Positions 6,866 through 45,313 of a stretch of DNA of 64,000 nucleotides are shown here, in pieces. The position numbers were made by a program, and so were the translations under genes. The DNA is from Chloroflexota bacterium. Its GTDB lineage: Bacteria; Chloroflexota; Anaerolineae; Anaerolineales; UBA4823. Position 1 is the stretch's first letter. Every line of letters begins with the position of its first letter. Under the pieces are notes generated by a model that saw nothing but the letters and a program-made list of their open reading frames with translations, searched no databases and was not told where the DNA came from. The stretch covers positions 1 to 64,000 of the forward strand of contig JAJUJL010000001.1 in NCBI GenBank assembly GCA_029265355.1, read 5' to 3'.

Positions 6866-8143
6866 TCAGGAGCGCTGCGTAGAATCACGCCGGGCGGGTA
6901 TGATCGTGGATGCCTGCCCGCGCCAAAGCCGCTCCAGGAACATGGCATCCAGCAGGATCAGGGCGTAATCGAACGGCAGGCGAAAGCGAATGCGGGTGAA
7001 GAAAACCGCCGTGACCAGGGCGCTGAGCAGGTACACACTCACCAGCAGCCACTCAAAGCCGGTGAGCGGAAAGCGGCGCGCCAGCCCCAGGCGCACCAGG
7101 CCCAGCAGCAGCAGGGAGCCGTAGGTGAGCAGCATGACCCCATTTGCCAGGCTCAATCCGCTCACCTGAGTGACCAGCTGATTGCGATAATTGAAGTAGT
7201 TGAGCACTTTTAGCAGGTAAATGCGCACCGCTGCGGCGGGATGGTTGAGAATAAAGGCCAGCGCCTTCTGGCGGAAGTAGCGGTCGCGCGCCAGCTCGCT
7301 CATGCCGTTGGCGGCTTCCCGATAATCACCGATCCCTACCATCGTGCCAGCATCCGGCACACTGTGCGGCGAGTTGCCCAGCAGCAGGTTTTCTCCCGAA
7401 TTGGCAGCCACCGGAATGAAGGCGTCAAAAACCAGCCAGTTGCGCACCGTCCATGCGCCGAGCATCAGCAGCGCTCCGCTCAGGAAGAGCGACAGTCGCG
7501 CCAGCAACCAAGATGGGCGTTTCACCAGCAGCCAGATCACAAACACCGGGAGCGTGAAGGCAAAGATTGGCACAGTCAGCACCAACCAGCCCAAAAGCAG
7601 CCCGGCAGCGCCAGCGCGCCACAGCGAGCTGTGCAGATCCGCCAACAGATATAGCACCAGCACAAACAGCATCCCTGCCAGGGTCTGCGGGTAGAAGGCG
7701 CCTGCGGTGAAAAAGAGCACCGCGTACGCGCAAGCCAGGAGCGCCGCCAGCAAACCGGCAGTTTTGCTCTGCAGTCGCCCCAACAGTCGGTAGAGCGCTG
7801 CCAGGGTCAGCCCGAATGCCAGGAAATTGCTCCAACGCAAGCCAACGAGCCCAGCGCCCAATGCCCGGAAAGGCAGTAACCACAGCACATAGCCCGGAGC
7901 GCGGTAGGCGCTGGGAGTGCGGCCATCCAATGAGTATGAGCCAATCACCAGCAAGTTGTCGACCAGCGCCAGGTAGTCTGCTTCATCGGGCAAAAATCGA
8001 AGCAGCTCGCCGAGGTAAAAGGCGTACATAGCGCCGCCCAGCAGCACCAGCACAATCAGCGCCAAAACCAGCCGCGAGGCGTGCAGCTCAGCCCTGGTCA
8101 TCCAAAGCGCCAACGCTCGACTAAAGCCGCTCATACAGATCAC
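6866..8143 (-). CDS. GT-C-type membrane glycosyltransferase (PMT/ArnT-like)
   Basis: A 425-residue polytopic membrane protein. After the first helix comes an acidic loop with 'FLPDEADYLALV' and then an Arg-x-Pro-Gly-Tyr region ('AYRAPGYVLWLLPF'), the layout of dolichyl-phosphate-mannose-type GT-C enzymes that use polyprenyl-phosphate sugars on the outer membrane face. It is the last gene of the locus. A GTG start overlaps the previous stop (GTGA); an ATG three codons further in is an equally possible start. Acceptor and donor are unknown. It stands in a row of three similar membrane enzymes. Confidence 0.7.
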   Translation of the reverse strand: MICMSGFSRALALWMTRAELHASRLVLALIVLVLLGGAMYAFYLGELLRFLPDEADYLALVDNLLVIGSYSLDGRTPSAYRAPGYVLWLLPFRALGAGLVGLRWSNFLAFGLTLAALYRLLGRLQSKTAGLLAALLACAYAVLFFTAGAFYPQTLAGMLFVLVLYLLADLHSSLWRAGAAGLLLGWLVLTVPIFAFTLPVFVIWLLVKRPSWLLARLSLFLSGALLMLGAWTVRNWLVFDAFIPVAANSGENLLLGNSPHSVPDAGTMVGIGDYREAANGMSELARDRYFRQKALAFILNHPAAAVRIYLLKVLNYFNYRNQLVTQVSGLSLANGVMLLTYGSLLLLGLVRLGLARRFPLTGFEWLLVSVYLLSALVTAVFFTRIRFRLPFDYALILLDAMFLERLWRGQASTIIPARRDSTQRS

Positions 8144-9666
8144 TTCATGCGCACAAAATGAAACAGGTTGAGGCGGTATTCATAATCCTTCTGCCCCAGC
8201 CAGCGCGTCTTCAACCAACGCAGCGAATCCGCCTGGCGCGCGTAATCGGCGCGCTCCGCAAGCTGGTAAAGGCCATTTGCCAATACAATGCTCTCCACCT
8301 CCCCGCCCGATTCGCGCTCTGGCTCGCCCAGGTTCGTGCGCAGCCACCAAACGTCGGAATAGCCAGCTTGCTCAACCTTGGGCCACTCGCTGGGCGCAAA
8401 CACGCGATAGCCAAAGTGAGCGCCATAATACCAGCAAGCATAGTCACCCGATCTTGGGGCGCAAATGATGGCGGTTTGTTCTACAGGCGACACCTCGATT
8501 TGCTGCATGATCTGCCGCCAGGGCACATTGAGGAAGGGTTTGATGAACTCGCGCCCGGTGAAATAGTTGAAGCCCGCCAGCAGATAAACACCCAAAAGCA
8601 GGGCGGGCAGGGTGTTCAGTATTTTTCGAGGCGCGGGTAGCCAGGCAACCAGCCAGATAATCAAAAACGGCAGGCCGTAGAGCATGCGGTTGGGCAGCCC
8701 TTGCCAGCCGGATACCGGATAAACAACGACAATGCTGATCGTCAGGTTGACCGCCACCAGGCTGAACAGCACCAGCAACAGAAACCAGGCCGCGCCCTTG
8801 GCGCGGAGCAGGGCCAGGGTTGCCATGCCAATCAATATGAGCGCGCCGAACCAGGCCAGCGGGTTGAGCGGCGAGAGCACCTCCCCCAGGCCAAAGGCAT
8901 AGCCCAGGTAACCAGCGCGCTTGAAGATCTCGATCCCCAGGTTGGCAGATTGCGCTTCCAGCACCACATCTTTTTCCACCTGGGCAGTCAGCACCGGCAA
9001 CCACGGCACAAACGAGGCCGCCACCATGAGCTGCGCCGCGATCCAGGGCAGCAGCGTGGCGGTATGTTTGCGCAGGGAAAACAGCCACCACAGGTTGCAC
9101 GCCAGCAGGATGCCCAAAGCGGGGTATGAGGTGTAAAGCAGCCCGGCCCCCAGCAAGACGTATGCAACCAGGTAGCCGGGATGGTGTGTTTCCAGGTATT
9201 TCAAAAAAGCGCTGACCAATCCCAATCCCAGCAGCATGGTTAAGGAATAATAACGCGCCGTGTGCCCGTAGGTGAGTAAAAGTGGTGAAAACGCCAACAG
9301 CGCCAGCGCCGCCAGGGCCGCGCCTTGCCCTGCCACGCGGCGCGCCAGCCAGTACGCCAGTCCCAGGGAAGCCAGAGTGAAAATGATCGACAGGCTGCGC
9401 AGTCCGACCTCCTCCACCCCAAAAATTTTGCCCCACGCACCTGTGACCAGAAAGTAAAGCGGCGGATGGCGATCACGCGCTGTCGCCAGGGCGATCTCAG
9501 CCGGCGATTTTAACGCCTGCGTTGCTGTCCAGGCCTCGTCTTCCCAGTAGCTTTTCTGCGCCGCACCCGCAAACTGCAAAACGAGCGCTGCCAGCAGCAC
9601 GAGCAAAATCAAGAGGCGCGAGTCTTTCTTCGGGTCAACTACGGCAGCATCGCTGGAATTATCCAT
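8140..9666 (-). CDS. GT39/ArnT-like membrane glycosyltransferase
   Basis: A 508-residue membrane protein with about a dozen hydrophobic helices. The first extracytoplasmic loop has 'SYWEDEAWT' and then 'DRHPPLYFLV', the acidic pair and Pro-Pro-Leu-Tyr signature of PMT-family (ArnT/GT39/GT83) enzymes. These transfer a sugar from a polyprenyl-phosphate donor to a lipid, protein or glycan outside the cytoplasmic membrane. A soluble C-terminal part of about 150 residues follows the helices. Its start overlaps the preceding DUF2142 gene by 8 bases and its stop overlaps the next start, so the three are coupled. The actual acceptor is not inferable. Confidence 0.78.
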   Translation of the reverse strand: MDNSSDAAVVDPKKDSRLLILLVLLAALVLQFAGAAQKSYWEDEAWTATQALKSPAEIALATARDRHPPLYFLVTGAWGKIFGVEEVGLRSLSIIFTLASLGLAYWLARRVAGQGAALAALALLAFSPLLLTYGHTARYYSLTMLLGLGLVSAFLKYLETHHPGYLVAYVLLGAGLLYTSYPALGILLACNLWWLFSLRKHTATLLPWIAAQLMVAASFVPWLPVLTAQVEKDVVLEAQSANLGIEIFKRAGYLGYAFGLGEVLSPLNPLAWFGALILIGMATLALLRAKGAAWFLLLVLFSLVAVNLTISIVVVYPVSGWQGLPNRMLYGLPFLIIWLVAWLPAPRKILNTLPALLLGVYLLAGFNYFTGREFIKPFLNVPWRQIMQQIEVSPVEQTAIICAPRSGDYACWYYGAHFGYRVFAPSEWPKVEQAGYSDVWWLRTNLGEPERESGGEVESIVLANGLYQLAERADYARQADSLRWLKTRWLGQKDYEYRLNLFHFVRMK

Positions 9667-17412: not shown

Positions 17413-18135
17413 TCATTCATCTCCTAAGATCTGCGGTCGCAACGTTTCCCATTCCTGGACAGCCTGTTCGTAATCGTCCGGGCGACCCAGGTCTTGCCAG
17501 TAGCCATCGAAGGGATAGCCCATCACCCGCTCACCAGCTTGCAGCAGGCGCAGCACCAGGTCGGGAAAATCCAGGCGCTGGTTGCGCTCCACATACTGCA
17601 GCACACGCGGCTCGAATACGTAAATGCCCATGCTCACCCGAAAATCGTAAGTCGGTTTTTCGATGTAGCCTGTCACTCGGTTAGAACGCCCGGGATGGGC
17701 ATCGAAGCGAATCACACCCAGGTCGACGTGCACACGGCGGGTGTGCGTGGCGATGGTCGCGACGGCATGCGAGCTGCGGTGGAAAGCGATCAGGTCTTTC
17801 AGCTCCAGGTTGGTGAGCACATCCCCATTGGTCACCAGGAAAGTGTCGTCCAGGCCATCCACCAGGGAAAGCGGCCCGGCAGTGCCCAACGGCTTGTCCT
17901 CGTAGCTGTAGCGAATGTTCAGCCCCCAGCGGCTGCCATCCTGGAAGAAAGCATTCAACAAGCCCGACAGGTGTCCCACGGTCAGAATCACCTCGTCCAC
18001 GCCGGCGCGCCGCATCTGGCGCAGCAAGATCTCCAGGATCGGCATATCGCCGATCGGCATCAACGGCTTGGGCAGGATCTTGGTATACGGCGCCAGGCGG
18101 GTGCCTTTACCGCCGGCCAGCACAACAGCTTTCAT
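17413..18135 (-). CDS. NDP-sugar nucleotidyltransferase
   Basis: A 240-residue enzyme with the signature LAGGKGTRLAPYT near the N-terminus, KPLMPIGDMP, and the catalytic-loop 'LVTNGDVL'. This is the single-domain form of the mannose-1-phosphate guanylyltransferase / glucose-1-phosphate thymidylyltransferase superfamily. It activates a sugar 1-phosphate with NTP. With Gmd encoded in the locus, GDP-mannose formation is one possibility; activation for the LegB/DegT branch is another. GGAG 9 bases before the ATG at 18135 favours it over a GTG six bases upstream. Base specificity cannot be told. Confidence 0.85.
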   Translation of the reverse strand: MKAVVLAGGKGTRLAPYTKILPKPLMPIGDMPILEILLRQMRRAGVDEVILTVGHLSGLLNAFFQDGSRWGLNIRYSYEDKPLGTAGPLSLVDGLDDTFLVTNGDVLTNLELKDLIAFHRSSHAVATIATHTRRVHVDLGVIRFDAHPGRSNRVTGYIEKPTYDFRVSMGIYVFEPRVLQYVERNQRLDFPDLVLRLLQAGERVMGYPFDGYWQDLGRPDDYEQAVQEWETLRPQILGDE

Positions 18136-19147: not shown

Positions 19148-20944
19148 TCATGATCCGTGGTGTGGAATGTTCAGCACCTGCTCGCTGCCGGGCGACCTGG
19201 CTTCATCCGCGACCAGGCTGCTGCGCAGGTCGTGCAGGCACTGGCGCGCAGCGGACAGGTCGCCATCTTCCAGGTGCGCTTCCAGCTCTGCCAGCAAGGC
19301 GCTCACCCGCTCTGCTGGCGGTTTGGATGCCGTGTCCTGCCGGACATCGTCTTCCAAAGAAGACGGCGCAGGGGGTGCGCTCAAGCCTGGCCCACCCGGG
19401 AGACTCGTTTTCCCGCTTGCCTGCGAGCCATTCACCGCATGGCGCAGGCTGGCCAACAAATCCGGCGCGAACACCACCCTGGCAGGGGTGGATTTGCAGA
19501 TCTCCAGAACGCTGCGCCGTTCTTCTTCCGGGATGTTGTGGATGGCAAATAAAATGATGCCAATATCGTATTTGCGCACCAACTGGGGAATATCCTCGCG
19601 CCGCCCCAGCACGTTGGCGCCGCGGATGCGCATCTGCTGCTTGTAAAGATCGTCGTCCACATAGCCCACCACGCGGAACGCCGAGCCGGCCCGCCCAGCT
19701 TGTAACCACCAGGCAAAGAATTGCCCGGCCTCGCCCACGCCAACGATCAGCACCCGTTCGCGGGCATCCATGGCCCCCGGTCGCGCCGCCACCAGGCGCG
19801 CCGCCAGGGTTGCCAGCAGGCGCTCGCGGTAGCGCACCGTCACGAAGCCGATCCCCGCCAGGCCCGCCCCCATCACGATCAGCGCTGGCGGCAGCGGCCC
19901 GCCCGGGTAATCCAGCACCCCGCCCTGCCACAGCGAGCTAACCAGCAGCGCCAACAAAGTGCCCAGGCCCAACGCCGGCAGCAGGTCCAGCGCATCGGTG
20001 AAATTGGCCTGCGACCAGACGATGCGGTTGACGCCCATGAAGGCGCAGGTGGCGCTGAACAGGATGGAAAAACCCAGCGCCAGCACCAGCGATTTGAACA
20101 GGCCGACGTTCAGCGGGCCAAACGAGCGCCAAAACACGCCCACCACGCCCAGGGCGACGAACGTCACCAGCAGGTCCACGATGAACCAGGAGACATAGCG
20201 CGTCATCAGGCGCGACAGCGGCCCCAAGAACAGGCGCTCCGGCAGCGGCTGGCGGGCAAACTCCTGCGGCAGCAGCACCAGGAAAGTCCACAGGATCACG
20301 TCCATGTCCAGCCAGAAGCTGCGGTTGCGCACGTAGAGTTGGTCCAGGCGCAGCTTGCTGGGTAAGATGTCTTCCAGGTAAGCATCCATGAGGTTGCCGT
20401 GGTGCAGCAGCGCTTCTTCATTGCGGTAGAGCACCGAGGCCGGGCTGGTGATGCCGGGGCGCACCGAGAGCACCTCGTTGCGCACCACCTCCGGCCAACC
20501 GGCCCCAATCTCAGGGTCCTCGGGCCGCGGCCCGACCAGGCTCATCTCACCCACCAGCACATTCCAGAGCTGCGGCAGCTCGTTGAGCTTGGTACTGCGC
20601 AGCCAGGCGCCCAGCGGCGTGATGCGCGCATCGCCCTGGGCCGTCACCCGTGGGCCATCATAGGACTCGGGGCGCTCGTACATGGTGCGAAACTTGAGGA
20701 TCTTGAACACCCGCCCGCCCTTGCCCAGGCGCGGCCCGCGGTAAAAGACCGGCCCGGGCGAATCGCGCTTGATCAGCAGCGCCACCAACAGAAACAGCGG
20801 CGAGAGCAGCGCCAGCCCGAACAACGCTGCCAGGATATCCACCAGGCGCTTGAGGCCATCGTACAGGCGGCGCGGCCGCGGCCGCGCCAGCGGTATGGTG
20901 CGAAGCGAATCCGTTCGGGGGGGAGAGACTGTGCCAGATTGCAT
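19148..20944 (-). CDS. Initiating polyprenyl-phosphate sugar phosphotransferase with inverted domain order
   Basis: A 598-residue membrane protein. The catalytic bacterial sugar transferase domain is at the N-terminus (about 25-255): KRLVDILAA, then '[11 protein letters not shown]', '[14 protein letters not shown]' and [14 protein letters not shown]. Behind it come about four membrane helices (about 275-400) and a Rossmann-like CoA_binding_3 domain ('[13 protein letters not shown]', then VVGYVDDD) followed by a disordered acidic tail of about 80 residues. In WbaP/EpsE-type enzymes the helices and Rossmann domain precede the transferase domain, so this chain is permuted. It loads a sugar 1-phosphate on undecaprenyl phosphate, the first step of repeat-unit assembly. 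A -10 and palindrome lie just upstream. Confidence 0.88.
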
Positions 20945-21061: not shown

Positions 21062-22006
21062 TCACTCGCCGGCGGAGCTCTCCGGCAACCCACCGCGCAG
21101 CGGCGGCGGCGCTTCCTGGCGCTCCAAGGGCAGGCGCCCCTGCAGGTAAAAGCGCAGCATGCCCTCGGCTTTGGCCAGCGCTGGCGAGCCGGGTCGCAGG
21201 CGGCGCAGCCCGCGCAGCGCGGCGTGGGAGAGCGGGTTGAAGAGCGGGCGCAGCCAGGGATGGAAGACCACCCGCTGGCGCACCGGCTTGGCCGTGTAAC
21301 CCATGCGGAACTTGAACTCGTCCACGCTGGGCGGCGCGTCCAACGAGTGCAGGCCGTAGAACAGGCGGCGCACGCTGGGACGCCCCAGCGCCGCCTGCGT
21401 GAAAGCGAAGGTCAGCGCGTTGTTGACTCCCTGGCTGAGATAGGCGCTGCGGCTGCCCTGGTGGAGGATGCTGCAGCAATCTTCGCAGGTGAAAGCGATC
21501 AGCGCCGCTGCCAGGGTATCGCCGCTCCAGGCGCCCCAGGCCTCGAAGCCCGGCAGGTCTGCGGCGCTCTGACAGAGAGTCTGCCACCAGGCGGAATCTT
21601 CCGCCTGGGTGCGCCCCTGGCGTTCCAATGTCTCGCGGCGCACCGCCCAGCCTTGCACCGCCAGCTCAGCGAAGGGCAACGGCGCGATGCGAAAAGCCGC
21701 CAGCCCTTTACGCACATCGTAGCGCGCTTTCTTGGGCAGTATCGAGAGCGGGTATTGGCTGCCCTCGTAGACCACGTGGTAGGAGGCCGCCCCGGCCTGG
21801 CTCTCCAGCGGGGTGGAATAGCGCAGCCCGATGGCGCCCAGCCCGCGCCACAGCTCCGCCAGCTCAGCCTCGCCCGGCGCGATCAGCCAGTGGTAGGGAA
21901 AGGCCTGGTAGACGCGCGGCCCCTGGTCGTACCAGTAGCTGCTTTCTGTGCGCAGCACGCGGTGTCCCTGGCGGCGCAGCCATTCGGCGAAGATATCGGG
22001 ATTCAA
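21062..22006 (-). CDS. FemAB/GNAT_6-like acyltransferase
   Basis: A 314-residue soluble protein with no signal. The middle ('GAWSGDTLAAALIAF', then 'LHQGS' and 'QGVNNALTFAFTQAAL') matches the C-terminal GNAT half of FemAB-superfamily proteins, and the last part ('DEFKFRMGYTAKPV') matches their closing Phe-Lys-x-x-Gly-Phe-like segment. FemAB relatives add amino acids to peptidoglycan; those in capsule loci are thought to add acyl or amino acid groups to sugars. Its ATG overlaps the stop of the preceding GNAT gene (ATGA). The specific substrate is unknown. Confidence 0.6.
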   Translation of the reverse strand: MNPDIFAEWLRRQGHRVLRTESSYWYDQGPRVYQAFPYHWLIAPGEAELAELWRGLGAIGLRYSTPLESQAGAASYHVVYEGSQYPLSILPKKARYDVRKGLAAFRIAPLPFAELAVQGWAVRRETLERQGRTQAEDSAWWQTLCQSAADLPGFEAWGAWSGDTLAAALIAFTCEDCCSILHQGSRSAYLSQGVNNALTFAFTQAALGRPSVRRLFYGLHSLDAPPSVDEFKFRMGYTAKPVRQRVVFHPWLRPLFNPLSHAALRGLRRLRPGSPALAKAEGMLRFYLQGRLPLERQEAPPPLRGGLPESSAGE

Positions 22007-25114: not shown

Positions 25115-25711
25115 TTATCCGATCACTCTTGCAGGGTTGCCAGCCGCTATCCTACCTGCAGGTACATCGCGGGTCACCACACTGCCGGCGCCGATCACGC
25201 AGCCGTGCCCCAGCCTGACACCCTTGAGCACCAGGCTATGCATGCCGATGAAGACGTCGTCTTCGATCACTACCGGGGCGGCGGGGGCGTCATTGGGGTG
25301 CAAACGGCGTTCCACCGGGTCGAGCGGGTGAAAGTCGGTGTCGATGATGGTGCAGTTAGCGCCCACGGTAACACGGTCGCCGATGCGGATAGAGCGCGCA
25401 GCGCAGATCACGCCGCCGGTCATGGCAAAATCGTCGCCGATCACCAGCTCGGCGTACGGCTGCCAGGTGCACAGCACCACCGGATGGGCAGGCGCCAGCG
25501 GGTTAGAGACCAGGCTGGAGCGCAGTCCCAGCCGATCGCCGATGAGCAGTGTGCTGCCGCGGTAGCGCTCGATGAGCGGCACGCCGTGCAGGCGCCAGCC
25601 GCGCCGCCAGGGAATACCGTAGTAAGCAAACAGCAGGCGGGCGCGCGGGTAAGCCAGCCAGCGAGCCAGCTCGCCCCACAACTTCCAGGGAGCGTCCAGG
25701 GTGCGGCGCAT
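25115..25711 (-). CDS. Left-handed beta-helix (hexapeptide) acyltransferase
   Basis: A 198-residue soluble protein. Repeated hexapeptide turns from about residue 60 to 190 ('SIRIGDRVTVGANCTIID', 'VVIEDDVFIGMHSLVLKGVR', 'GCVIGAGSVVTRDVPAG', then AAGNPARVIG) are the LbetaH signature of maltose/galactoside O-acetyltransferase relatives. It probably moves an acyl group from acyl-CoA to a sugar of the unit. The start shares one base with the MaoC gene stop (TGATG). A MaoC enzyme directly upstream could supply an unusual hydroxyacyl donor. It is GC-rich, unlike its flanks. Confidence 0.88.
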   Translation of the reverse strand: MRRTLDAPWKLWGELARWLAYPRARLLFAYYGIPWRRGWRLHGVPLIERYRGSTLLIGDRLGLRSSLVSNPLAPAHPVVLCTWQPYAELVIGDDFAMTGGVICAARSIRIGDRVTVGANCTIIDTDFHPLDPVERRLHPNDAPAAPVVIEDDVFIGMHSLVLKGVRLGHGCVIGAGSVVTRDVPAGRIAAGNPARVIG

Positions 25712-26271
25712 CAGGCTGCCCCTCGGGTTGGATGTCGCGCCGCGATCAGTCGTGAATAGAGTTCCTCCAGGCGGCGTGCGATCGCTGCGCCGATGCCGCG
25801 GTTGGCGCCGGTAACCAAGACAACTTGTGAAGGCAATTCAGTCACGTTTTTTTCCTCGATCAGCTCCAACAACTTTACCGTGGCGCGGCCGGTCACTACC
25901 CTCTGGGCGCGCTGGTTCGTAAGTTGGATATCCAACAGCAGGGTGCGCGTCGCCGGCGAGATTTGCGCCACCTGGCCCGAGATTTTCAGGGTGTCGCCGA
26001 TGTACGTGGGGTGGAGGAACTCCAGGGTCTGCGAAGTCCACAGCGCCCCCGGACCCGGCAGCACCATCCCGATCAAGGTCGAGATGAACGCGGATGACAG
26101 CATCCCGTGCACGACCGGTTTTTGCAAGGAGGTGCGCCTGGCAAACTGCTCGTCGACGTGCAGCGGGTTTCGATCCCCTGTCAACCGCATGAAGGTTTCC
26201 ACGTCATCTTGTGTAACGGTGTGCTCGAGCTCTGCGATCTCGCCGACCTTAAACTGCTCGATCGATTTCAT
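25711..26271 (-). CDS. MaoC-type dehydratase with a cut-off SDR tail
   Basis: A 186-residue protein. Residues 1-140 form a hot-dog MaoC domain with the hydratase signature 'DRNPLHVDEQFARRT' and 'PVVHGMLSSAF' (catalytic Asp/His set), as in R-specific enoyl-CoA hydratases. Residues 147-176 are the first strand, glycine loop and first helix of a short-chain dehydrogenase ('VVLVTGANRGIGAAIARRLEE'). The chain then ends, lacking the Ser-Tyr-Lys part and over 200 residues of a normal SDR. This is best read as a MaoC-SDR fusion gene that lost its 3' part. The MaoC domain may still work, giving 3-hydroxyacyl groups to the adjacent acyltransferase. Confidence 0.75.
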   Translation of the reverse strand: MKSIEQFKVGEIAELEHTVTQDDVETFMRLTGDRNPLHVDEQFARRTSLQKPVVHGMLSSAFISTLIGMVLPGPGALWTSQTLEFLHPTYIGDTLKISGQVAQISPATRTLLLDIQLTNQRAQRVVTGRATVKLLELIEEKNVTELPSQVVLVTGANRGIGAAIARRLEELYSRLIAARHPTRGAA

Positions 26272-34224: not shown

Positions 34225-34229
34225 TGCAC

Positions 34230-34331
34230 TTATCTTTCGATTGTAACCGAATTGTTACGGTCGATCATTAATACCGCACTAAACATTTGCAAAGCAGCCA
34301 TACTAAGCGATGAATTCCACCAATAACCCAT
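34230..34331 (-). pseudogene. 33-codon open stretch, possible gene remnant
   Basis: An ATG-started frame of 33 codons ends 5 bases before the WecD-like start, and the frame is open for about 15 codons further upstream. It reads as plausible protein (hydrophobic and aromatic, 'GYWWNSSLSMAALQMF') but matches nothing I recognise. It lies in the 243-base gap before the flippase gene's 3' end. It may be the C-terminal scrap of a lost gene or chance. The rest of that gap shows nothing. Confidence 0.25.
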
Positions 34332-34467
34332 TTTGGTCAGGCCGCGCCAGGACGAAGTGATCACTCTGACTGGTTCTACGAGGTATCGGACAGTGTGCCT
34401 TCACCCTTTTTCCACGAAAGGCTACAGCAGGATATCACTTTCATAACTGGCAAGATCAAGTTCTGGT

Positions 34468-35961: not shown

Positions 35962-36256
35962 GAACGCTGCCAATAACCTTCATCGAGTTTCTCACGACGA
36001 TTGAGCCTGAGATTACTGATTCTGATGAACCAGCCAGGTGAAAGCCCAAGATAACCTGGGAGTCGAGCCGCAATATCCCGCTGCCTTGAAATTGTGTTGG
36101 GTGATTAATCCTTACTGAGCGGCCAATCTCGACCTGACCCCCATAGAGCCAGGCCTGCAGCTTAAGGCGCAGCAGGTAGACGGGAGCGAATAGTAAGCGA
36201 AGTCGCAGATAGAATTTAATTGGAGAACGAAAGGCGCGATGAAAGCGATTTAGCAT
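35945..36256 (-). pseudogene. Truncated hexapeptide acyltransferase fragment
   Basis: A 103-codon frame. After a basic amphipathic N-terminus ('KFYLRLRLLFAPVYLLRLKL') come two beta-helix-like turns ('GGQVEIGRSVRINHPTQF', 'GSGILRLDSQVILGFHLAG') as at the entry of left-handed beta-helix acyltransferases. It stops after about 80 residues of such a protein, running into the flippase start, and lacks the coils that hold the active site. There is no ribosome site before its ATG. I read it as a 5' fragment of a decayed gene, though a short functional protein cannot be excluded. Confidence 0.5.
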
Positions 36257-36300
36257 AAATACAAGCGATAGACCAGCGGATAGCTGCTAAGAACGATTCG

Positions 36301-36447
36301 TTATCGGTCATCCAGAGACGGGACGATGATGAAAACATCAGCCACCCACTTGCGGCGAAAATGCACATCCGCTCCGCCCACTTCATGACCACGCGCCGGC
36401 AGGGACCAACCCAAACCGCCATCCAAGCCAGCAATGAAGACCTTCAT
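36301..36447 (-). pseudogene. N-terminal remnant of an NAD-dependent epimerase (SQD1-like)
   Basis: A 48-codon frame with a real ribosome site (GGAG about 10 bases before ATG; a GTG 6 bases upstream is better spaced). Its product opens with a Rossmann start, 'MKVFIAGLDGGLGWSL', and continues 'ARGHEVGGADVHFRRKWVAD', resembling the first 40 residues of UDP-sulfoquinovose-synthase-like SDR epimerases. It then leaves the family and hits a stop. It is too short to be an enzyme, so it marks a deletion in the locus. Residues around the Gly loop already look eroded. Confidence 0.55.
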
Positions 36448-36533
36448 TCGCACAATTCTCCTGAATAGTTGGGGGGTGTGACTGAATCATTAGAACCGCG
36501 CAATCTCGGTCACATTATAGCAATAGAATCGCA

Positions 36534-36563
36534 AATAATGCTTGCAGTTGCGCAAGCATTATT
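36534..36563. terminator. 12-bp perfect hairpin after the second glycosidase gene
   Basis: AATAATGCTTGC and GCAAGCATTATT pair perfectly around a 6-base loop. It lies 86 bases past the glycosidase stop (minus strand) and before the epimerase remnant. There is no long T-tract on either side, so it could be an mRNA 3'-end structure, a weak terminator or a protein site. The remaining gap (36448-36648) shows nothing else. Confidence 0.45.
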
Positions 36564-36648
36564 GCAAATGATTGAGCGTAGCCTGGATCTTGAAAGGGGG
36601 CAAGCCCGACCGATCGCATTTCTCAGCGAACAGCCGGGCCTGCACAGC

Positions 36649-39396: not shown

Positions 39397-40485
39397 CTAC
39401 CCGGCGCGCTCCTGGTGAACGCCGTCATCGCTCACCACCTGGTCTTCCCAGCGGTGCCAGCGCCCGTGGTGCTTTTCCAGGATCTTGCGCCCTTCTCCCG
39501 GCGATGGCAACCCTTGCAGTTCCAGGTCGGCATCCACCATGATGCGCACCAGGTCCTTAAAGAAGACGCGCGGCTCCCAGCCCAATACGCTGCGGGCTTT
39601 GCTGGGGTCGGCCAGCAGGTAGTCCACCTCGGTGGGGCGGAAGTAGCGCGGGTCGATCTTGACATATTGCTGCCAATCCAGGCCAGCGTATGAGAAAGCC
39701 TCTTCCAACAGCTCGCGCACGGAGTGCGCCTCGCCGGTGCCGATCACAAAGTCCTCGGGCTGGTCGTGTTGCAGCATCTTCCACATGGCTGCCACGTAAT
39801 CGGGGGCGTAGCCCCAGTCGCGCTTGGCTTCCAGGTTGCCCATGTAGAGGAAATCCTGCTTGCCTGCCAGGATGGCTGCCACGGCGCGGGTCACCTTGCG
39901 GGTGACAAAGGTCTCGCCGCGGCGCGGGGACTCGTGGTTGAACAGGATGCCGTTGCAGGCGAACATCTGGTAGCCTTCGCGGTAGTTGCGCGTCACCCAG
40001 TAGGCATAGACCTTGGCGGCTGCGTAGGGGCTTTGCGGCTGGAAGGGGGTGTTTTCGCTCTGCGGCGGCCTGGCGCTGCCAAACATCTCAGAAGATGAGG
40101 CCTGGTAGAAACGCGCCTTCACGCCGCTCTTGCGAATGGCTTCCAGGATGCGCATGGTGCCCAGGGCGGTCACGTCGCCGGTGTACTCTGGCAGGTCGAA
40201 GCTGACGCGCACATGCGACTGCGCCGCCAGGTGATACACCTCGTCCGGGCGGATGTTATAGATCAGCTCGGTCAGGTTGCCAGAGGCGGAGATGTCGCCA
40301 TAATGCAGGCGCAGGTTCACGCCATTCTGGTTATGTGGATCGCGATAGATATGATCGATGCGTTGGGTGTTGAATGTGCTGGCGCGCCGGATCAGGCCAT
40401 GCACTTCGTAGCCTTTGGACAGCAAAAGCTCAGCCAGATACGAACCATCCTGTCCGGTGATGCCAGTTATCAATGCCTTTTTCAT
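39397..40485 (-). CDS. gmd: GDP-mannose 4,6-dehydratase
   Basis: A 362-residue extended [18 protein letters not shown] at 8-22 is the diagnostic NADP site, followed by '[15 protein letters not shown]', '[10 protein letters not shown]', 'SSSEMFG' and Tyr154-x3-Lys158 in SPYAAAK, then '[17 protein letters not shown]'. This fits GMD over its full length. It converts GDP-mannose to GDP-4-keto-6-deoxymannose, leading to GDP-fucose, rhamnose or perosamine. No GMER/FCL reductase gene is adjacent, so the end product is open. It is the first biosynthetic gene after the antiterminator, with a 221-base hairpin-rich spacer. Confidence 0.96.
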
Positions 40486-40585
40486 ACTTTTCGTTCCTCT
40501 CCGAAATTATTGCAGATTGCGCCATAATGCGCTATCCCCCATTTTTCTTATTGCCGCCTGACAATATTGCAATGCCGGCAGGCAA

Positions 40586-40622
40586 CTAAACTCCCGCAAT
40601 GGGCCAGGAGCGGTGAGTTTAG
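40586..40622. other. Hairpin in the antiterminator-gmd spacer
   Basis: CTAAACTC plus CCGC (40586-40597) pair with GCGG and GAGTTTAG (40610-40622) with one bulged T, leaving a 12-base loop. No T-tract follows on the minus strand. The 221-base spacer (40486-40706) contains no gene. The element could be an RNA signal in the transcript leader ahead of gmd, possibly a recruitment, pause or attenuation site. Confidence 0.45.
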
Positions 40623-40706
40623 CAATAGCCGCGCTCCGCCCTTCCGACACGCGCGGGTTGGACTGGATGGTGGTACGCTAGTCCAGTCGAAAAAAGCGCC
40701 CAAAAG

Positions 40707-41216
40707 TTACTTGCGGCGTTGAATCTTACCGGCGTCCAATTCAATGGGCACCTGGCGCTGGTTGCTGAGCAGTTGCAGCAGAACGCGCACACGCTCGCTG
40801 CCGGGCAAGCGGGCATCAAAGATGGCTTCGAATCCCGAGAATGGCCCTTCGCGTATCACAACCACATCGCCGCTTTTCAGCCCATCGAACACCTCACCGC
40901 CCGCCGCGGCGATCTCCTCGACGCGTTTTTGAATGGCGTGGATCAGGTTCTCAGGTACGATGGCGGGCTCGTCGCCGAAACTCACCAACCCCAGGGCGTG
41001 CGGCATCCATTGGAACGTGGATTTGCCGAGCTGCTCCAAGTCTGCCTGCACAAACATATAACCCGGGAAATAGGGGCGTAGTTTTCGTGAGCGCGGGTTG
41101 ACAGGGTTGACGCGCAGGCGAGGGTAGTAAACCTCGATGCCCTGGGCGCGCACCTGGCGCCAGACGACATCTTCTTTGCGCGCTTTACTGCGCAATGCAT
41201 ACCAATGTACCGGCAT
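40707..41216 (-). CDS. NusG/RfaH-like specialised transcription antiterminator
   Basis: A 169-residue protein. The NGN domain (about 1-105) starts 'HWYALRSKARKEDVVWRQV' and includes 'YYPRLRVNPVNP' and 'PYFPGYMFVQADL', the core NusG-family motifs. A KOW domain follows ('LKSGDVVVIREGPFSGFEAI'). It is shorter than housekeeping NusG and heads a long polysaccharide operon, the position of RfaH, LoaP and UpxY. It should bind RNA polymerase and suppress pausing and termination in that operon. GGAG about 10 bases before the ATG at 41216 sets the start. A longer upstream frame overlaps the M50 gene and is rejected. Confidence 0.88.
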   Translation of the reverse strand: MPVHWYALRSKARKEDVVWRQVRAQGIEVYYPRLRVNPVNPRSRKLRPYFPGYMFVQADLEQLGKSTFQWMPHALGLVSFGDEPAIVPENLIHAIQKRVEEIAAAGGEVFDGLKSGDVVVIREGPFSGFEAIFDARLPGSERVRVLLQLLSNQRQVPIELDAGKIQRRK

Positions 41217-41250
41217 AATTGACCTACTCCAGGGATCTGACCAGAGAGTT

Positions 41251-41259
41251 ATTTTACCA
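41251..41259 (-). promoter_or_regulatory. Extended -10 promoter of the polysaccharide operon
   Basis: On the minus strand TGG-TAAAAT forms an extended -10 (TGn plus hexamer) about 35 bases before the antiterminator start, with no good -35. Transcription would begin near 41244. This is the only promoter-like element in the spacer between the M50 gene and this operon. Confidence 0.45.
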
Positions 41260-41313: not shown

Positions 41314-42069
41314 TCAGGCGACTTCCAGGCCAGTCCAGCGCTCCAACAGGCGGCGCAGCAGCGCAAAAGGCAGCAAAAACAGGGCGTGCAGCCCGAAGCT
41401 GAGCCCCAAAACGCTGGTAGCCGCCAGGGCTGCTCGGTTCAACCAGGGCGCCAGGTGGGTGAGCATCCACGGACCTGCGCCAGCGACCAGGCCAAGCCCC
41501 AGCAGAGCGCCGGAGGCCAGCCCCAGGGGCAGCCAGGCGCGCCGGTCTGAGCGGGAAGGGAACATGGTGCTGCTGACGGTGAACGCCAGGTACATCCACA
41601 GCCAAAAGTCCGAGCGCTGGTAAACCGTGCTCCAGGCCTCGGGGAGGGCCTGCGCGCCAGCCTGGCGCACTGCCTCCCAAAAGCCCAGCAATCCCAGACG
41701 GTTCTGACCAGCGTAGGCGACAAACAAGCCGCCAGCGATCAGCGGCGCGGCGCCAATCAGGGCGTCGCGCACCAGGTCAGTCCGGGCTGTTTCCACATAG
41801 CCCAGTTGCAGCCGCCCATCCGCGGTGGCGCGGGGCGCCAGCGAAAAGCGCCCGGTGCGCACCAGCAGCAATCGGGCCGTGAAATAATGGCTCAATTCGT
41901 GCAGGAGCACACCGGGAAAAAACAGCAACGCAAACAGCGCTTGAGAGAGATCTGCCCGGCGGGTGATCAACAGAAATACTGCCTGGATTTCACGGTGCAG
42001 CAAGCGTTGAAAGACCAGCAGCAACGCCAGGCCCAGCAGCAACCAAAATATGCTCTCGATTTGGCTCAA
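41314..42069 (-). CDS. M50 (site-2-protease-like) membrane metallopeptidase homolog
   Basis: A 251-residue protein with about six hydrophobic helices. HELSH at 57-61 is the zinc-binding HExxH motif, placed in a helix as in S2P-type M50 proteases. A following Asn/Pro-Asp-type second zinc site is not clear ('LIGAAPLIAGG' region instead), so it may be a divergent or inactive member. Its start overlaps the tpiA stop by 4 bases, making it part of the glycolytic operon. The substrate is unknown. The family call rests on the motif and topology. Confidence 0.72.
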   Translation of the reverse strand: MSQIESIFWLLLGLALLLVFQRLLHREIQAVFLLITRRADLSQALFALLFFPGVLLHELSHYFTARLLLVRTGRFSLAPRATADGRLQLGYVETARTDLVRDALIGAAPLIAGGLFVAYAGQNRLGLLGFWEAVRQAGAQALPEAWSTVYQRSDFWLWMYLAFTVSSTMFPSRSDRRAWLPLGLASGALLGLGLVAGAGPWMLTHLAPWLNRAALAATSVLGLSFGLHALFLLPFALLRRLLERWTGLEVA

Positions 42070-42824
42070 GCAGCCGCAGCCTGGGTAATACCAATAAATT
42101 CTTCAGCTTTCAAGCTGGCGCCGCCCACCAGGGCGCCATCGATTTCCGGTTGACTGAAGAATTCAGCGGCAATGCTGGCTTTGACCGAGCCGCCATACAG
42201 CACGCGCACCCCTTGAGCAAATGGCGCGCCAAAGAGTTCTTCCAATACCGGCCGGATGATGTCGGCGACCACGCTGTTAGCCAGTTCTCCAGTCGCCGCG
42301 CGCCCGGTGCCAATCGCCCAGACAGGTTCGTAGGCGATCACCAAGGTGGTGGGATCGTTGAGGTCCAGGCGCGCCAGGCCGTCGCGCAACTGGCGCTCGA
42401 TGACCTCCCGCGTGCGGTTGGACTCGTTCTCTTCCAGGGTCTCTCCCACGCACAGGATCGGCAACAAGCCGTGCAGCAAGGCCGATTGAAGCTTGCGATT
42501 GACCGTTTGGTCTGTTTCCCCAAAGTAGGTGCGCCTCTCCGAGTGACCGATGATCACATAGCGCACCAGTTCCGCCAGCATCAGGGGGGAGATTTCGCCG
42601 GTATACGCGCCAGACGGCTCCCAGTGCATGTTCTGCGCGCCGAGTTGAATGTTGGTGCCCTCCAAAAGGGCGCGCACAGCCAGCAAATCGGTGAATGGCG
42701 GGCAAATCACCTTTTCAACGCCTGCAATGGCCTGCAAGCCTGGAACAAGTTCGGAAACCAGGTGGCGCGCTTCCGCAACCGTTTTGTACATCTTCCAGTT
42801 ACCAGCCACGATGGGTACTCGCAT
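42066..42824 (-). CDS. tpiA: Triosephosphate isomerase
   Basis: A 252-residue enzyme of normal length. It starts 'MRVPIVAGNWKMYKT' (catalytic Asn and Lys), with the electrophile His in IGHSERR, the catalytic Glu in 'AYEPVWAIGTG' (motif with loop 6), and 'LYGGSVKASIAAEF' for phosphate binding. It interconverts dihydroxyacetone phosphate and glyceraldehyde 3-phosphate. The ATG at 42824 is preceded by GAGG with a 6-base gap; a longer frame upstream has no support. It is downstream of gap and pgk and coupled to the M50 gene. Confidence 0.97.
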   Translation of the reverse strand: MRVPIVAGNWKMYKTVAEARHLVSELVPGLQAIAGVEKVICPPFTDLLAVRALLEGTNIQLGAQNMHWEPSGAYTGEISPLMLAELVRYVIIGHSERRTYFGETDQTVNRKLQSALLHGLLPILCVGETLEENESNRTREVIERQLRDGLARLDLNDPTTLVIAYEPVWAIGTGRAATGELANSVVADIIRPVLEELFGAPFAQGVRVLYGGSVKASIAAEFFSQPEIDGALVGGASLKAEEFIGITQAAAA

Positions 42825-42863
42825 GGTGAACCTCGCTTCTTCGTTGCAGTAGATCAGAAAATT

Positions 42864-42896
42864 GGGGTGTGCAGACAGGCTGCGCCCACACACCCC
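42864..42896 (-). terminator. Attenuator-like hairpin between pgk and tpiA
   Basis: On the minus strand GGGGTGTG and CACACCCC form a perfect 8-bp stem with a 17-base loop, followed by AATTTT. The short U-tract suggests a weak intrinsic terminator that could lower tpiA expression relative to gap and pgk. A second small stem with a CGAAA-type loop lies at the pgk end of this 100-base spacer. Confidence 0.55.
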
Positions 42897-42924
42897 CGTT
42901 TACTGTGCTCCAGCCTTTCGGGCT

Positions 42925-44103
42925 TTAGTTGCGATCTAACAATGCTGCCACGCCGGGAAGCACCAGGCCTTCCAGCATTTCCAGCGAAGCCCCACCGCCG
43001 GTGGAAATATGCGTGATCTTATTCGCCAGGCCGGACTGGTTGACTGCTGCCACCGAGTCGCCTCCGCCAATGATGGAGGTGGCGCCACTGCTGGCCACTG
43101 CCTGGGCGATGCTGTACGTGCCCTGGGCGAAGTTGGGCATCTCGAAGACGCCCATTGGCCCGTTCCACACCACCGTGCCAGCCGAGGCGATGACCTTGCG
43201 GAACGCAGCCGCCGTCTCAGGGCCAATATCCAGGATGCGCCAGCCGTCCGGCACTGGCGCCATCGGCATCACCCGGCTCTCGGCCTCGTTCTCGAAGCGG
43301 TCGGCAATCACCACATCGATCGGCAGGCGCAAGCGGGTGCCTCCCATGGCGAGAAGTTCGCGTGCCGTATCCAGGGCCTCGTCTTCCACCAGCGAGTCGC
43401 CCACCGGGTAGCCCTGGGCCTTGAAAAAGGTGTTCGCCATGCCGCCGCCGATCAAAACGTGGTCGGCGATCTTCAGCAGGTTGCGAATCACGCCGATCTT
43501 GTCGCTGATCTTTGCGCCGCCCAGGATGGCGACAAACGGGCGTTTCGGTTCAGCGATTGCCTGTCCCAGGTATTGAATTTCTCTCTCCATCAGGAAACCG
43601 GCCACGGCCGGCAGGTGATGGGCTACGCCTTCGGTCGAAGCGTGGGCGCGATGAGCAGAGCCAAACGCGTCATTGACATACACATCAGCCAGCCTGGCTA
43701 ACTGCTCGGAAAGCTCAGGATCGTTCTTGGTTTCGCCAGGGTGAAAACGGGTGTTTTCCAAAACCAGGATCTCACCTGGCTTGAGCGCCTGGGCAGCAGC
43801 GGTGACATCTGGGCCAACCAGGTTACCCACGAACGCCACCGGCTTACCCATCAAGCCTGCCAGGTAGTCTGCGACCGGTTTCATGGAAAACTCAGGCGAT
43901 GGGCCGCCTTTTGGACGTCCCAGGTGCGAACACAAGATCAAGGAAGCGCCTCGATCCAAGAGGTAATTCAAAGTTGGCAGAGCGGCCCGGATGCGGGTAT
44001 CATCCTTGACCTTGCCTTCTTTGATCGGCACATTGAAATCGACGCGTACCAGGACGCGTTTGCCTCGAAAATCGATATCGCGGATGGTTTTTTTATTGAA
44101 CAT
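42925..44103 (-). CDS. pgk: Phosphoglycerate kinase
   Basis: A 392-residue enzyme of typical length. '[20 protein letters not shown]' is the PGK signature near the N-terminus, with the substrate Arg set ([10 protein letters not shown], 'CSHLGRPKG') and the nucleotide site '[11 protein letters not shown]' near the end. It transfers phosphate between 1,3-bisphosphoglycerate and ADP. GGAG with a 6-base gap precedes the ATG at 44103. An ATG in the same frame 12 bases upstream lies before the ribosome site and is rejected. A perfect hairpin stands just before its ribosome site. Confidence 0.97.
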
Positions 44104-44118
44104 GGCGCGCTCCAAACC

Positions 44119-44150
44119 GGTGAAGCGCCCGATGCACTGGGCGCTTCACC
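44119..44150 (-). other. Perfect 12-bp hairpin between gap and pgk
   Basis: GGTGAAGCGCCC and GGGCGCTTCACC pair perfectly around an 8-base loop. It ends about 8 bases before the pgk ribosome site, with no T-tract. A role as RNA processing or stability element, separating gap from pgk message levels, is likely by analogy to gap operons elsewhere. Protein binding to the palindrome is the alternative. Confidence 0.6.
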
Positions 44151-44165
44151 TCTGATGGAATGGAT

Positions 44166-45221
44166 TTAGAGGCTTTTAGCCATCAATGCAGCCAGGTCGG
44201 CGGTACGCACCGAGTAGCCCCATTCGTTGTCGTACCAGGCGACGATCTTGGCGAAGGTGCTCGATTCCTTGCCCAACACCTGGGTGAAAGGCAGGTCGAC
44301 GCTGGAAGAGTGCGGGTCGCCTTTGTAATCGATGCTCACCAGCGGCTCATCCACCGCTTGCAAGATGCCCTTGAGCGGGCCGGCAGCCGCGTCACGATAG
44401 AGCTGGCGCAGTTCTTCGGTCGTGGTGGCATTTTCCAACTCAACCGTCAGGTCAATCACCGAGACGGTTGAAGTCGGCACGCGCAGCGCGTACCCGTCCA
44501 ATTTGCCGGCCATGTCTGGAATGACCAGCTTCAGGGCGCGAGCTGCACCGGTGGAGGTGGGAATGATGCTCATGGCCGCCGCGCGCGCCCGGCGCAGATC
44601 GCTGTGCGGCAGGTCCAGGATCTTCTGGTCGTTGGTGTAGGCGTGAATGGTGGTCATGAAGCCGCGCTTGACGCGATAGCGATCGTGCACGACCTTCACC
44701 GCCGGCGCCAGGCCGTTGGTGGTGCAGGAAGCGTTCGACACAACGTGGTGCCTGGCAGGGTCGTACATATCGTGGTTAACGCCTAAAACCACCGTCAGGT
44801 CTTCGCCCTCTGCCGGAGCGGAGATGATCACCTTCTTGGCGCCGCCCTTGGTGATGTGATTCTCAGCGCCCTTGACCAACTTGCCTTTCTTGTTGACGCC
44901 ATCGGATTTCACGGTGAAAATGCCGGTGCTCTCAACCACAATCTGCACACCCAGGTCGCCCCACGGAATATTGGCGGGATCGGTCTCTTTGAAGACCTTG
45001 ACCGGCTTGCCATCCACGAGCAATTCGTCGTCTCCAACCTCCACGGTTCCATCGAAGCGCCCATAGTTCGAGTCATACTTCAACAGGTGCGCCATGGTCT
45101 TCAAGTCACCGATATCATTGAAAGCGACGACCTCCAGCGTATCCGGATGGTAGTCTCGAATGGCCTTCATCACCTGACGACCGATGCGACCAAATCCATT
45201 GATGCCAACTTTTACTGTCAT
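44166..45221 (-). CDS. gap: Glyceraldehyde-3-phosphate dehydrogenase, type I
   Basis: A 351-residue enzyme. '[19 protein letters not shown]' binds [11 protein letters not shown] carries the catalytic Cys, and '[22 protein letters not shown]' and '[11 protein letters not shown]' are further signatures. It oxidises and phosphorylates glyceraldehyde 3-phosphate. Asp in 'VAFNDIGD' suggests NAD preference. GGAGG 6 bases before the ATG at 45221 overrules a 22-codon in-frame extension. It is the first gene of gap-pgk-tpiA. The 92-base gap to yvcK contains no clear promoter consensus. Confidence 0.97.
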
Positions 45222-45313
45222 TTTAGCCTCCAAGCTTTTGTCTATAACAGATTTTTGTTCGAAGCTGCTTTGTGATTGAGCAGCCATTTTTCACGAAAAC
45301 AATCTCCACAACA

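Follow-up and report, generated by a model that had tools for sequence, protein, structure and literature searches.

A NusG paralog and an ops-like element associated with polysaccharide gene clusters in Anaerolineae

A 169-aa NusG paralog (SP) is encoded at 40707-41216 on the minus strand of the analyzed DNA, and a conserved ops-like element, ATGTCGRAAGGGCGGAGCRYG, lies at 40630-40649 on the same strand, between the SP gene and gmd. The window, as we call the whole 64-kb stretch, corresponds to bases 1-64000 of contig C19 (464,490 bases), in a genome of 5.05 Mb that is 98% complete. Our comparisons establish the paralog, a separate housekeeping copy, and the element with its conservation, position, orientation and co-occurrence with SP. 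We consider it probable that SP is an RfaH-like elongation factor that has an ops-like code of its own and occurs mainly in Anaerolineae, and that it acts both on the adjoining operon and in trans on other polysaccharide operons; this function is a prediction.

The NusG paralog and its chromosomal neighborhood

The original prediction described a short NGN-KOW protein related to NusG, and this was confirmed for an open reading frame that begins with an ATG at 41216 and whose stop codon ends at 40707. Its NGN domain matches PF02357 (NusG) with 57.8 bits against a cut-off of 22.2, its C-terminal part is a KOW-like domain, and the AlphaFold2 model has a mean pLDDT of 86.2. The genome encodes a single SP, and the proposal depended on SP not being its sole nusG; indeed, a separate housekeeping copy is present at G000:C64, between secE and rplK/rplA, flanking open reading frames that were assigned by reading their sequence. 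With NGN and KOW domains alongside a housekeeping nusG, SP classes as a NusG-SP. Rho is also encoded in the genome.

Among the NCBIfam models, SP scores highest with RfaH (84.4 bits; equivalog cut-off 144.5), followed by UpxY (58; cut-off 100), NusG (44) and LoaP (36; cut-off 125), each below its cut-off, and a PDB profile search with SP gave 79 bits for RfaH and 56 bits for E. coli NusG. The nearest named family is RfaH, in line with the likeness first supposed, though SP falls under every curated cut-off. Two other approaches to this kinship were set aside. A tree with a strong branch had E. coli RfaH on the same side as the SPs; the placement was not used because its very long branch joins another long branch. 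Likewise, a Foldseek search against the PDB, which matched NusG and RfaH alike with low TM scores, was not used.

A probable extended -10 of the SP promoter, TGGTAAAAT, is present at 41251-41259 (-), as originally described. The -35 paired with it is poor (CTGAAA, 9/12 in all, with 0.5 such sites expected per shuffle). Extended -10 boxes were found within 160 nt upstream of the SP gene at 17 of 53 loci (shuffled mean 1.8, maximum 8), and since they are enriched there, a promoter before the gene is plausible. A recruitment site upstream of the SP gene was considered and rejected, the de novo search having returned mainly -10 boxes in that region. SP may be the first gene of its operon, as had been proposed; same-strand genes continue upstream to 46648 (a gene of no assigned family, tim, pgk, gap and cofD), and only 97 nt separate SP from the upstream gene ending at 41314. 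The nearer of these neighbors (the gene of no assigned family, tim, pgk and gap; 41314-45287, -) form the home of SP in the family: at least one of tim, pgk or the unassigned gene precedes SP on the same strand at 27 of 56 SP loci, so the gene has a conserved home behind glycolysis genes. The lodging of a polysaccharide regulator beside glycolysis genes, both in the window (41314-45287) and at the SP loci of relatives, is an observation in its own right.

Past the element, the first gene is gmd (GDP-mannose 4,6-dehydratase; 39397-40485, -; TIGR01472 520 bits, cut-off 415), followed at 5007-39388 (-) by the putative target, a run of polysaccharide genes that is recognized by profile families and might form a single transcript. 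These families include nucleotidyltransferase, flippase-like, glycosyltransferases, Bac_transf, epimerase, DegT, Wzz/Wzc, Wzy_C, LMW phosphatase and others. The run had been described as reaching 6866 on one strand with many overlaps of 1-8 bases. Polysaccharide families were indeed present in most genes scanned from SP to 8140 (minus-strand ORFs only), and the run may continue beyond 6866, the gene at 5007-6569 being also on the minus strand and belonging to the gene set found downstream of SP in relatives. Five overlaps were counted (8140-8143, 9659-9666, 17413-17420, 22003-22006 and 25711), but the run also includes same-strand gaps of 221 nt (40486-40706), 675 nt (35974-36648) and 243 nt (34225-34467), so that a single 34-kb transcript remains putative.

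In several relatives the home locus is compact: SP is accompanied by a low-molecular-weight phosphatase, a DUF2142 protein and others, and often by gmd. The window has the look of a compact locus that has taken in a large polysaccharide cluster. Two genes within the run have unusual architectures. A sugar-phosphate transferase (19148-20944, -) shows an unusual domain order, with Bac_transf at residues 32-225 followed by CoA_binding_3/NeuD-like at 390-494, and a MaoC-like dehydratase (25711-26271, -), possibly a truncated fusion, ends in residues that match the start of a short-chain dehydrogenase.

The element in its own genome and across relatives

The original prediction could name no ops-like element for this lineage, a statement now superseded by comparison of relatives. 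A recurrent string was seen among the listed sequences that follow their SP stop codons. A de novo k-mer test on 54 such stretches, each at most 300 nt long, recovered the 14-mer TGTCGGAAGGGCGG, with at most one mismatch, in 23; the best 10-mer in 20 dinucleotide shuffles reached 8 of 54. In the window, the element defined by this comparison, the k-mer test and a logo (TGTCGGAAGGGCGGAGCGCG, 40630-40649, -) stands 57 nt past the SP stop codon and is the only match within three mismatches in the 64 kb. It occurs within 300 nt downstream of the SP gene at 24 of 56 loci.

Three exact copies of the 17-mer occur in the genome (C19:40633-40649, C19:317317-317333 and C60:156648-156664), all standing before polysaccharide genes. 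Behind the two distant copies, for each of which ten genes were scanned, one of them upstream, the same-strand genes encode glycosyltransferases, sugar-phosphate transferases, nucleotidyltransferases and hexapeptide acetyltransferases. Since two exact copies lie far from the SP gene, SP probably also acts in trans. Service to the operon in which it is encoded, as first proposed, is likely to be only one part of its role, because these two copies head distant polysaccharide clusters with no SP there, and the element is missing from most compact home loci in relatives. Only the exact copies are informative within the genome, as a search allowing three mismatches gave 17 matches against 27 in the reversed control.

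One element-headed cluster, L107, carries a WecG/TagA glycosyltransferase fused to STAS domains (L107:14170-15654, -) and, near this fusion, a SpoIIE-type phosphatase (L107:10596-12134, -), a pair that may represent partner-switching control inside a polysaccharide operon. Moreover, a single protein of the same cluster joins nucleotidyltransferase, hexapeptide repeats and Bac_transf (L107:12485-14170, -).

In the order sample (101 genomes of the family and order), TGTCGRADGGGCGGAGC gave 51 matches in 36 genomes against 2 in the reversed control, and the element was present in 31 of 54 SP-positive and 5 of 47 SP-negative genomes (Fisher p 6e-7, in a test that ignores relatedness and with three SP-positive genomes, G008, G068 and G089, resting on fragments). 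The strict element is missing in 23 of the 54 SP-positive genomes, some of which carry variants. In the phylum sample (400 genomes), a slightly wider pattern gave 28 matches in 19 genomes against 7 in the reversed control; 22 fell in 13 genomes with a strong SP and 6 in genomes without SP. The element was thus present in 13 of 29 SP-positive and 6 of 371 SP-negative genomes (Fisher p 1.6e-12, again ignoring relatedness), where SP-positive means at least 200 bits, a limit set after a gap between 204 and 147 bits had been seen. Most of the genomes compared are metagenome assemblies. Outside the order, SP and the element occur together in G238, G312, G349, G356 and G468. In three genomes of another class (G312:C61, G349:C22 and G356:C102), the SP gene is preceded on its own strand by the element, at a distance of about 400-800 nt, a position that would suit autoregulation. 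Five order-sample genomes carry the element with no SP detected; in two of them (G009 and G054, 95-96% complete), the housekeeping nusG was the only one found. The exact element of G009 (95% complete; L152, C27:86704-86720) precedes a mostly co-directional run.

Furthermore, a scan with ATGTCGRAAGGGCGGAGC of one genome per species for 84,980 species returned 86 stretches, 22 of them with an SP gene in the stretch. According to titles read by hand, the 80 titled stretches comprise 66 from Chloroflexota, 12 from other phyla and 2 from unnamed bacteria. The pair Y-G at positions 19-20 is present in 53 of 67 Chloroflexota sites and in only 2 of 12 sites from other phyla, and all 12 of the latter, against 25 of 67 of the former, are contained in open frames of 200 codons or more; the matches from other phyla therefore look like chance. 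Named carriers of the element are Bellilinea caldifistulae, Anaerolinea thermolimosa, Thermanaerothrix daxensis and Leptolinea tardivitalis, and a scan of IMG/VR for phage or viral carriers returned 0.

Of 34 sites in 33 trans stretches, 30 have a downstream neighbor, and in 24 of these the nearest such gene points the same way; the nearest upstream gene does so in 17 of 30. Among 64 proteins chosen from 202 listed at trans sites, the commonest family was Glycos_transf_2, in only 7, with Bac_transf in 5 and Wzz in 4, a suggestive count of polysaccharide families made without a background, and other functions such as AMP-binding and radical SAM were also present. A promoter just upstream of the element is only weakly enriched (TGnTAnAAT in 8 of 94; shuffled mean 2.4, maximum 7). 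In the 38 SP loci that are followed by 4 kb or more of sequence, the element occurs in 1 of 14 compact and 18 of 24 other loci (p 1e-4), under a post hoc grouping in which the single element-bearing compact locus is the window, so placed by its match to a gene resembling 5007-6569. This split indicates that the element tends to accompany polysaccharide cargo, not the SP gene as such.

Pause register, core and ops-reading residues

From 100 non-redundant instances taken as Chloroflexota, 96 of them of the 17-nt form, a logo gave the consensus A TGTCG R A A G GGCGGAGC R Y G, in which the conservation of positions 1-17 is inflated by their use in selection, and the A at -1 belonged to the pattern of the 84,980-species scan only. 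Outside the search pattern, position 19 is Y in 93 of 96 and position 20 is G in 79 of 96. Taking Y19 as -1 and G20 as +1 places positions 9 (G in 90 of 96) and 10 (G in 96 of 96) at -11 and -10. A consensus pause carries G-11 G-10, Y-1 and G+1, and all of these letters are found in the element, where pausing is predicted; in the window, G-11 G-10 (element positions 9-10) lie at 40640-40641 (-), Y-1 at 40631 and G+1 at 40630. In four variants with an inserted T (GGCGGATGCKTG), a run of three G keeps this register, which ops exemplifies in the passages of PMC5995543 devoted to it.

The core GCGGAGC (40633-40639, -) is a candidate non-template mini-hairpin (GC - GGA loop - GC), suggested by its sequence and by DNA folding. 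Nearest-neighbor folding of 12-mers as DNA gave -1.9 kcal/mol for the window, -0.9 each for ops and the T-insert form, and 0 for the common form ending in GTG (GGGCGGAGCGTG), and because these energies are mixed the hairpin is plausible only. DNA mini-hairpins are unusually stable when two G-C pairs close a GNA or GNNA loop, according to the relevant portion of PMC4686876, a rule that fits ops (GGTA) and the common core (GGA), but not the T-insert loop (GGAT). In ops, as the structural passages of PMC5995543 describe it, the loop spans G4-A7 above a C3-G8 pair, and T6 is flipped out into a pocket formed by H20/R23/Q24/R73. Compared with the E. coli ops fetched as a control (GGCGGTAGCGTG, waaQ leader), the core of the element differs in its loop: GC-GGA-GC can form with G8 again as the partner, but its loop has one base fewer. 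T6 is replaced as well, GGGCGGAGCRYG having G at position 6 in the pause register. In the L080 variant, GGCGGATGCGTG, a change of TA to AT is the sole difference from E. coli ops. The base before TGTC is A in 81 of 96, giving ATG, and G in the window itself.

On the protein side, 52 SPs were compared, with residue correspondence to RfaH read from the alignment. K11 (RfaH K10) is K in 51 of 52, Q21 (H20) is Q in 40, positions 24 and 25 (R23, Q24) are variable, P72 (R73) is P in all 52, and W70 (A71) is W in 50. Hence, of the RfaH ops-binding set K10, H20, R23, Q24 and R73, only K10 is clearly kept; correspondingly, the element has no flipped-out T6 and SP does not keep the residues of the T6 pocket. 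No tie between W70Y and T-insert elements is claimed: Y occurs in two of the 52 SPs, one of them that of L080 (T-insert), but the T-insert locus L068 keeps W. The PVNPR segment of the NGN beta-hairpin is nearly invariant. In the section of PMC11001881 that treats it, the corresponding loop of RfaH contacts upstream DNA. The ATGTCGRAA half would be situated immediately upstream of the bubble and may be read by the PVNPR loop. The one AlphaFold2 model of SP has its KOW in the beta form. Among autoinhibition and fold-switch residues, E48 is mostly R, K or Q, I93 is mostly kept, and the F130 and R138 equivalents are present in 52 of 52.

We infer binding of SP to the element, polymerase pausing, the hairpin and read-through in the following sequence. 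RNA polymerase transcribing the leader would pause at the element (register GG(N8)YG), and the NGN domain would read GGGCGGAGC on the exposed non-template strand, which might be folded into a tiny GC-GGA-GC hairpin. The upstream half (ATGTCGRAA, 8-9 bp) would lie in the upstream duplex, within reach of the PVNPR loop of the NGN beta-hairpin. Once loaded, SP would displace housekeeping NusG and protect the polymerase from Rho-dependent polarity, and the long cluster would thereby be transcribed to its end. SP would thus work like RfaH, yet it is not filed as RfaH, since it scores below the model cut-off and both T6 and its pocket are replaced. That the pair amounts to a second ops system, with a hairpin bearing G (or A) for T6, a matched change of pocket and an upstream-duplex half read by the NGN beta-hairpin, is a proposition on which we are evenly divided.

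Alternative readings and known systems

The alternative that survives best, which we nevertheless hold to be unlikely, is that the element is an RNA signal and that SP or another protein binds the nascent transcript instead of non-template DNA. LoaP is held to bind an RNA hairpin, strict conservation would fit RNA equally, GRAA within TGTCGRAAGG could make a GNRA loop, and the window leader has other hairpins. However, no Rfam family is found in that leader at a meaningful score, and it folds only mildly better than shuffles (z -1.68). The GNRA loop or the pair that closes it is disrupted by substitutions at positions 8 (A to G/T) and 9 (G to T), the flanks of the element are not conserved, and the pause register together with the likeness to ops points to DNA.

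Slightly less credit is given to the idea that the element marks polysaccharide operons for another factor (e.g., housekeeping NusG or another pause-dependent regulator), the SP gene merely riding along. The five SP-negative genomes of the order sample with the element would agree with this, as would the compact SP home loci, usually devoid of it; against it, co-occurrence persists when the element and SP are on different contigs, and the six SP-negative matches of the phylum sample do not exceed the seven of the reversed control. We find it more doubtful still that SP serves its own cluster only, in cis, like UpxY and LoaP, with the other copies being relics or unrelated. In the window the SP gene does stand directly before a long cluster, and the cis arrangement is common among SP loci, but the two distant exact copies precede polysaccharide genes in the same genome, and many relatives carry the element solely on other contigs. 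Finally, a conserved small coding sequence starting at the element (ATG TCG GAA GGG CGG AGC), which the A before TGTC might suggest (an A whose prevalence owes something to the ATG in the scan pattern, and which is G in the window), is very improbable and was rejected. Variation among its codons falls on first positions (6 and 9), with no change at any third position, the inserted T of the variants throws the reading out of frame, and the frame after ATG is no longer than the others (median 21 vs 24 and 15 codons, n=77).

Among known systems, RfaH/ops of Enterobacteria resembles our preferred reading of SP as a trans-acting factor with its own code in several respects: a short NGN-KOW NusG paralog besides housekeeping NusG, a short element ahead of long polysaccharide operons, with the consensus-pause letters and a GC-rich core (here a candidate hairpin), a kept K10 equivalent, and action in trans, predicted here from three exact copies in one genome. 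The differences are the phylum, the RfaH score of SP (84.4 bits, cut-off 144.5), G (A in T-insert variants) for ops T6, the shorter loop of the common form, the replaced T6 pocket, an extra conserved upstream half (ATGTCGRAA), and, in SP, a KOW predicted as beta-barrel and loss of the E48 of the autoinhibitory salt bridge. JUMPstart (RF01707) is likewise a leader of polysaccharide operons, and its 3' part, GGGCGGTAGCGTG, minus one T equals the common core, but its 5' stem-loop part is absent from the element leader; RF01707 gave no match up to E 10 in the window leader (40450-40760), whereas the E. coli waaQ leader scores 55 bits.

LoaP of Bacillota is also a NusG paralog, promoting antitermination in long clusters, and it differs in its RNA hairpin target and in the low score of SP with its model (36 bits, cut-off 125). 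UpxY of Bacteroides is a NusG paralog heading capsule-type clusters; SP again scores below its cut-off (58 against 100 bits), and one SP goes with several dispersed sites, while UpxY genes are found one per locus, with UpxZ, in the account given in part of PMC7593976. Monomorphic beta-RfaH proteins, in a portion of a preprint (PMC13015549), are RfaH relatives held not to switch fold and adjoining their target operons; they are described there as ops-independent and lacking a few ops-binding residues, whereas SP has a conserved element.

RfaH at ops is the best understood sequence-specific recruitment of a NusG paralog, RfaH is considered "mostly limited to Proteobacteria", and ops contacts are regarded as a late step of RfaH evolution, in the passages of PMC7593976 that deal with them. 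A literature search outside subscription papers and supplements found no paper pairing RfaH, ops or NusG paralogs with Chloroflexota, and the main texts of PMC7593976, PMC7819879 and PMC13015549 nowhere contain the word "chloroflexi" (or "anaerolineae", where that too was sought).

In brief, a distant phylum couples a NusG paralog to an element with the same pause register, a nearly identical core, and another loop base and pocket, which offers a natural test of how NusG paralogs change their code. The 20-nt signal predicts regulons for uncultured Anaerolineae, and the named carrier strains offer places to test the element. One part of PMC11001881 asks if further elongation factors are recruited by non-template hairpins that differ in their loop bases; if the second ops system is true, the answer would be yes, and recruitment by pause plus hairpin would either have arisen twice or far predate the Proteobacteria.
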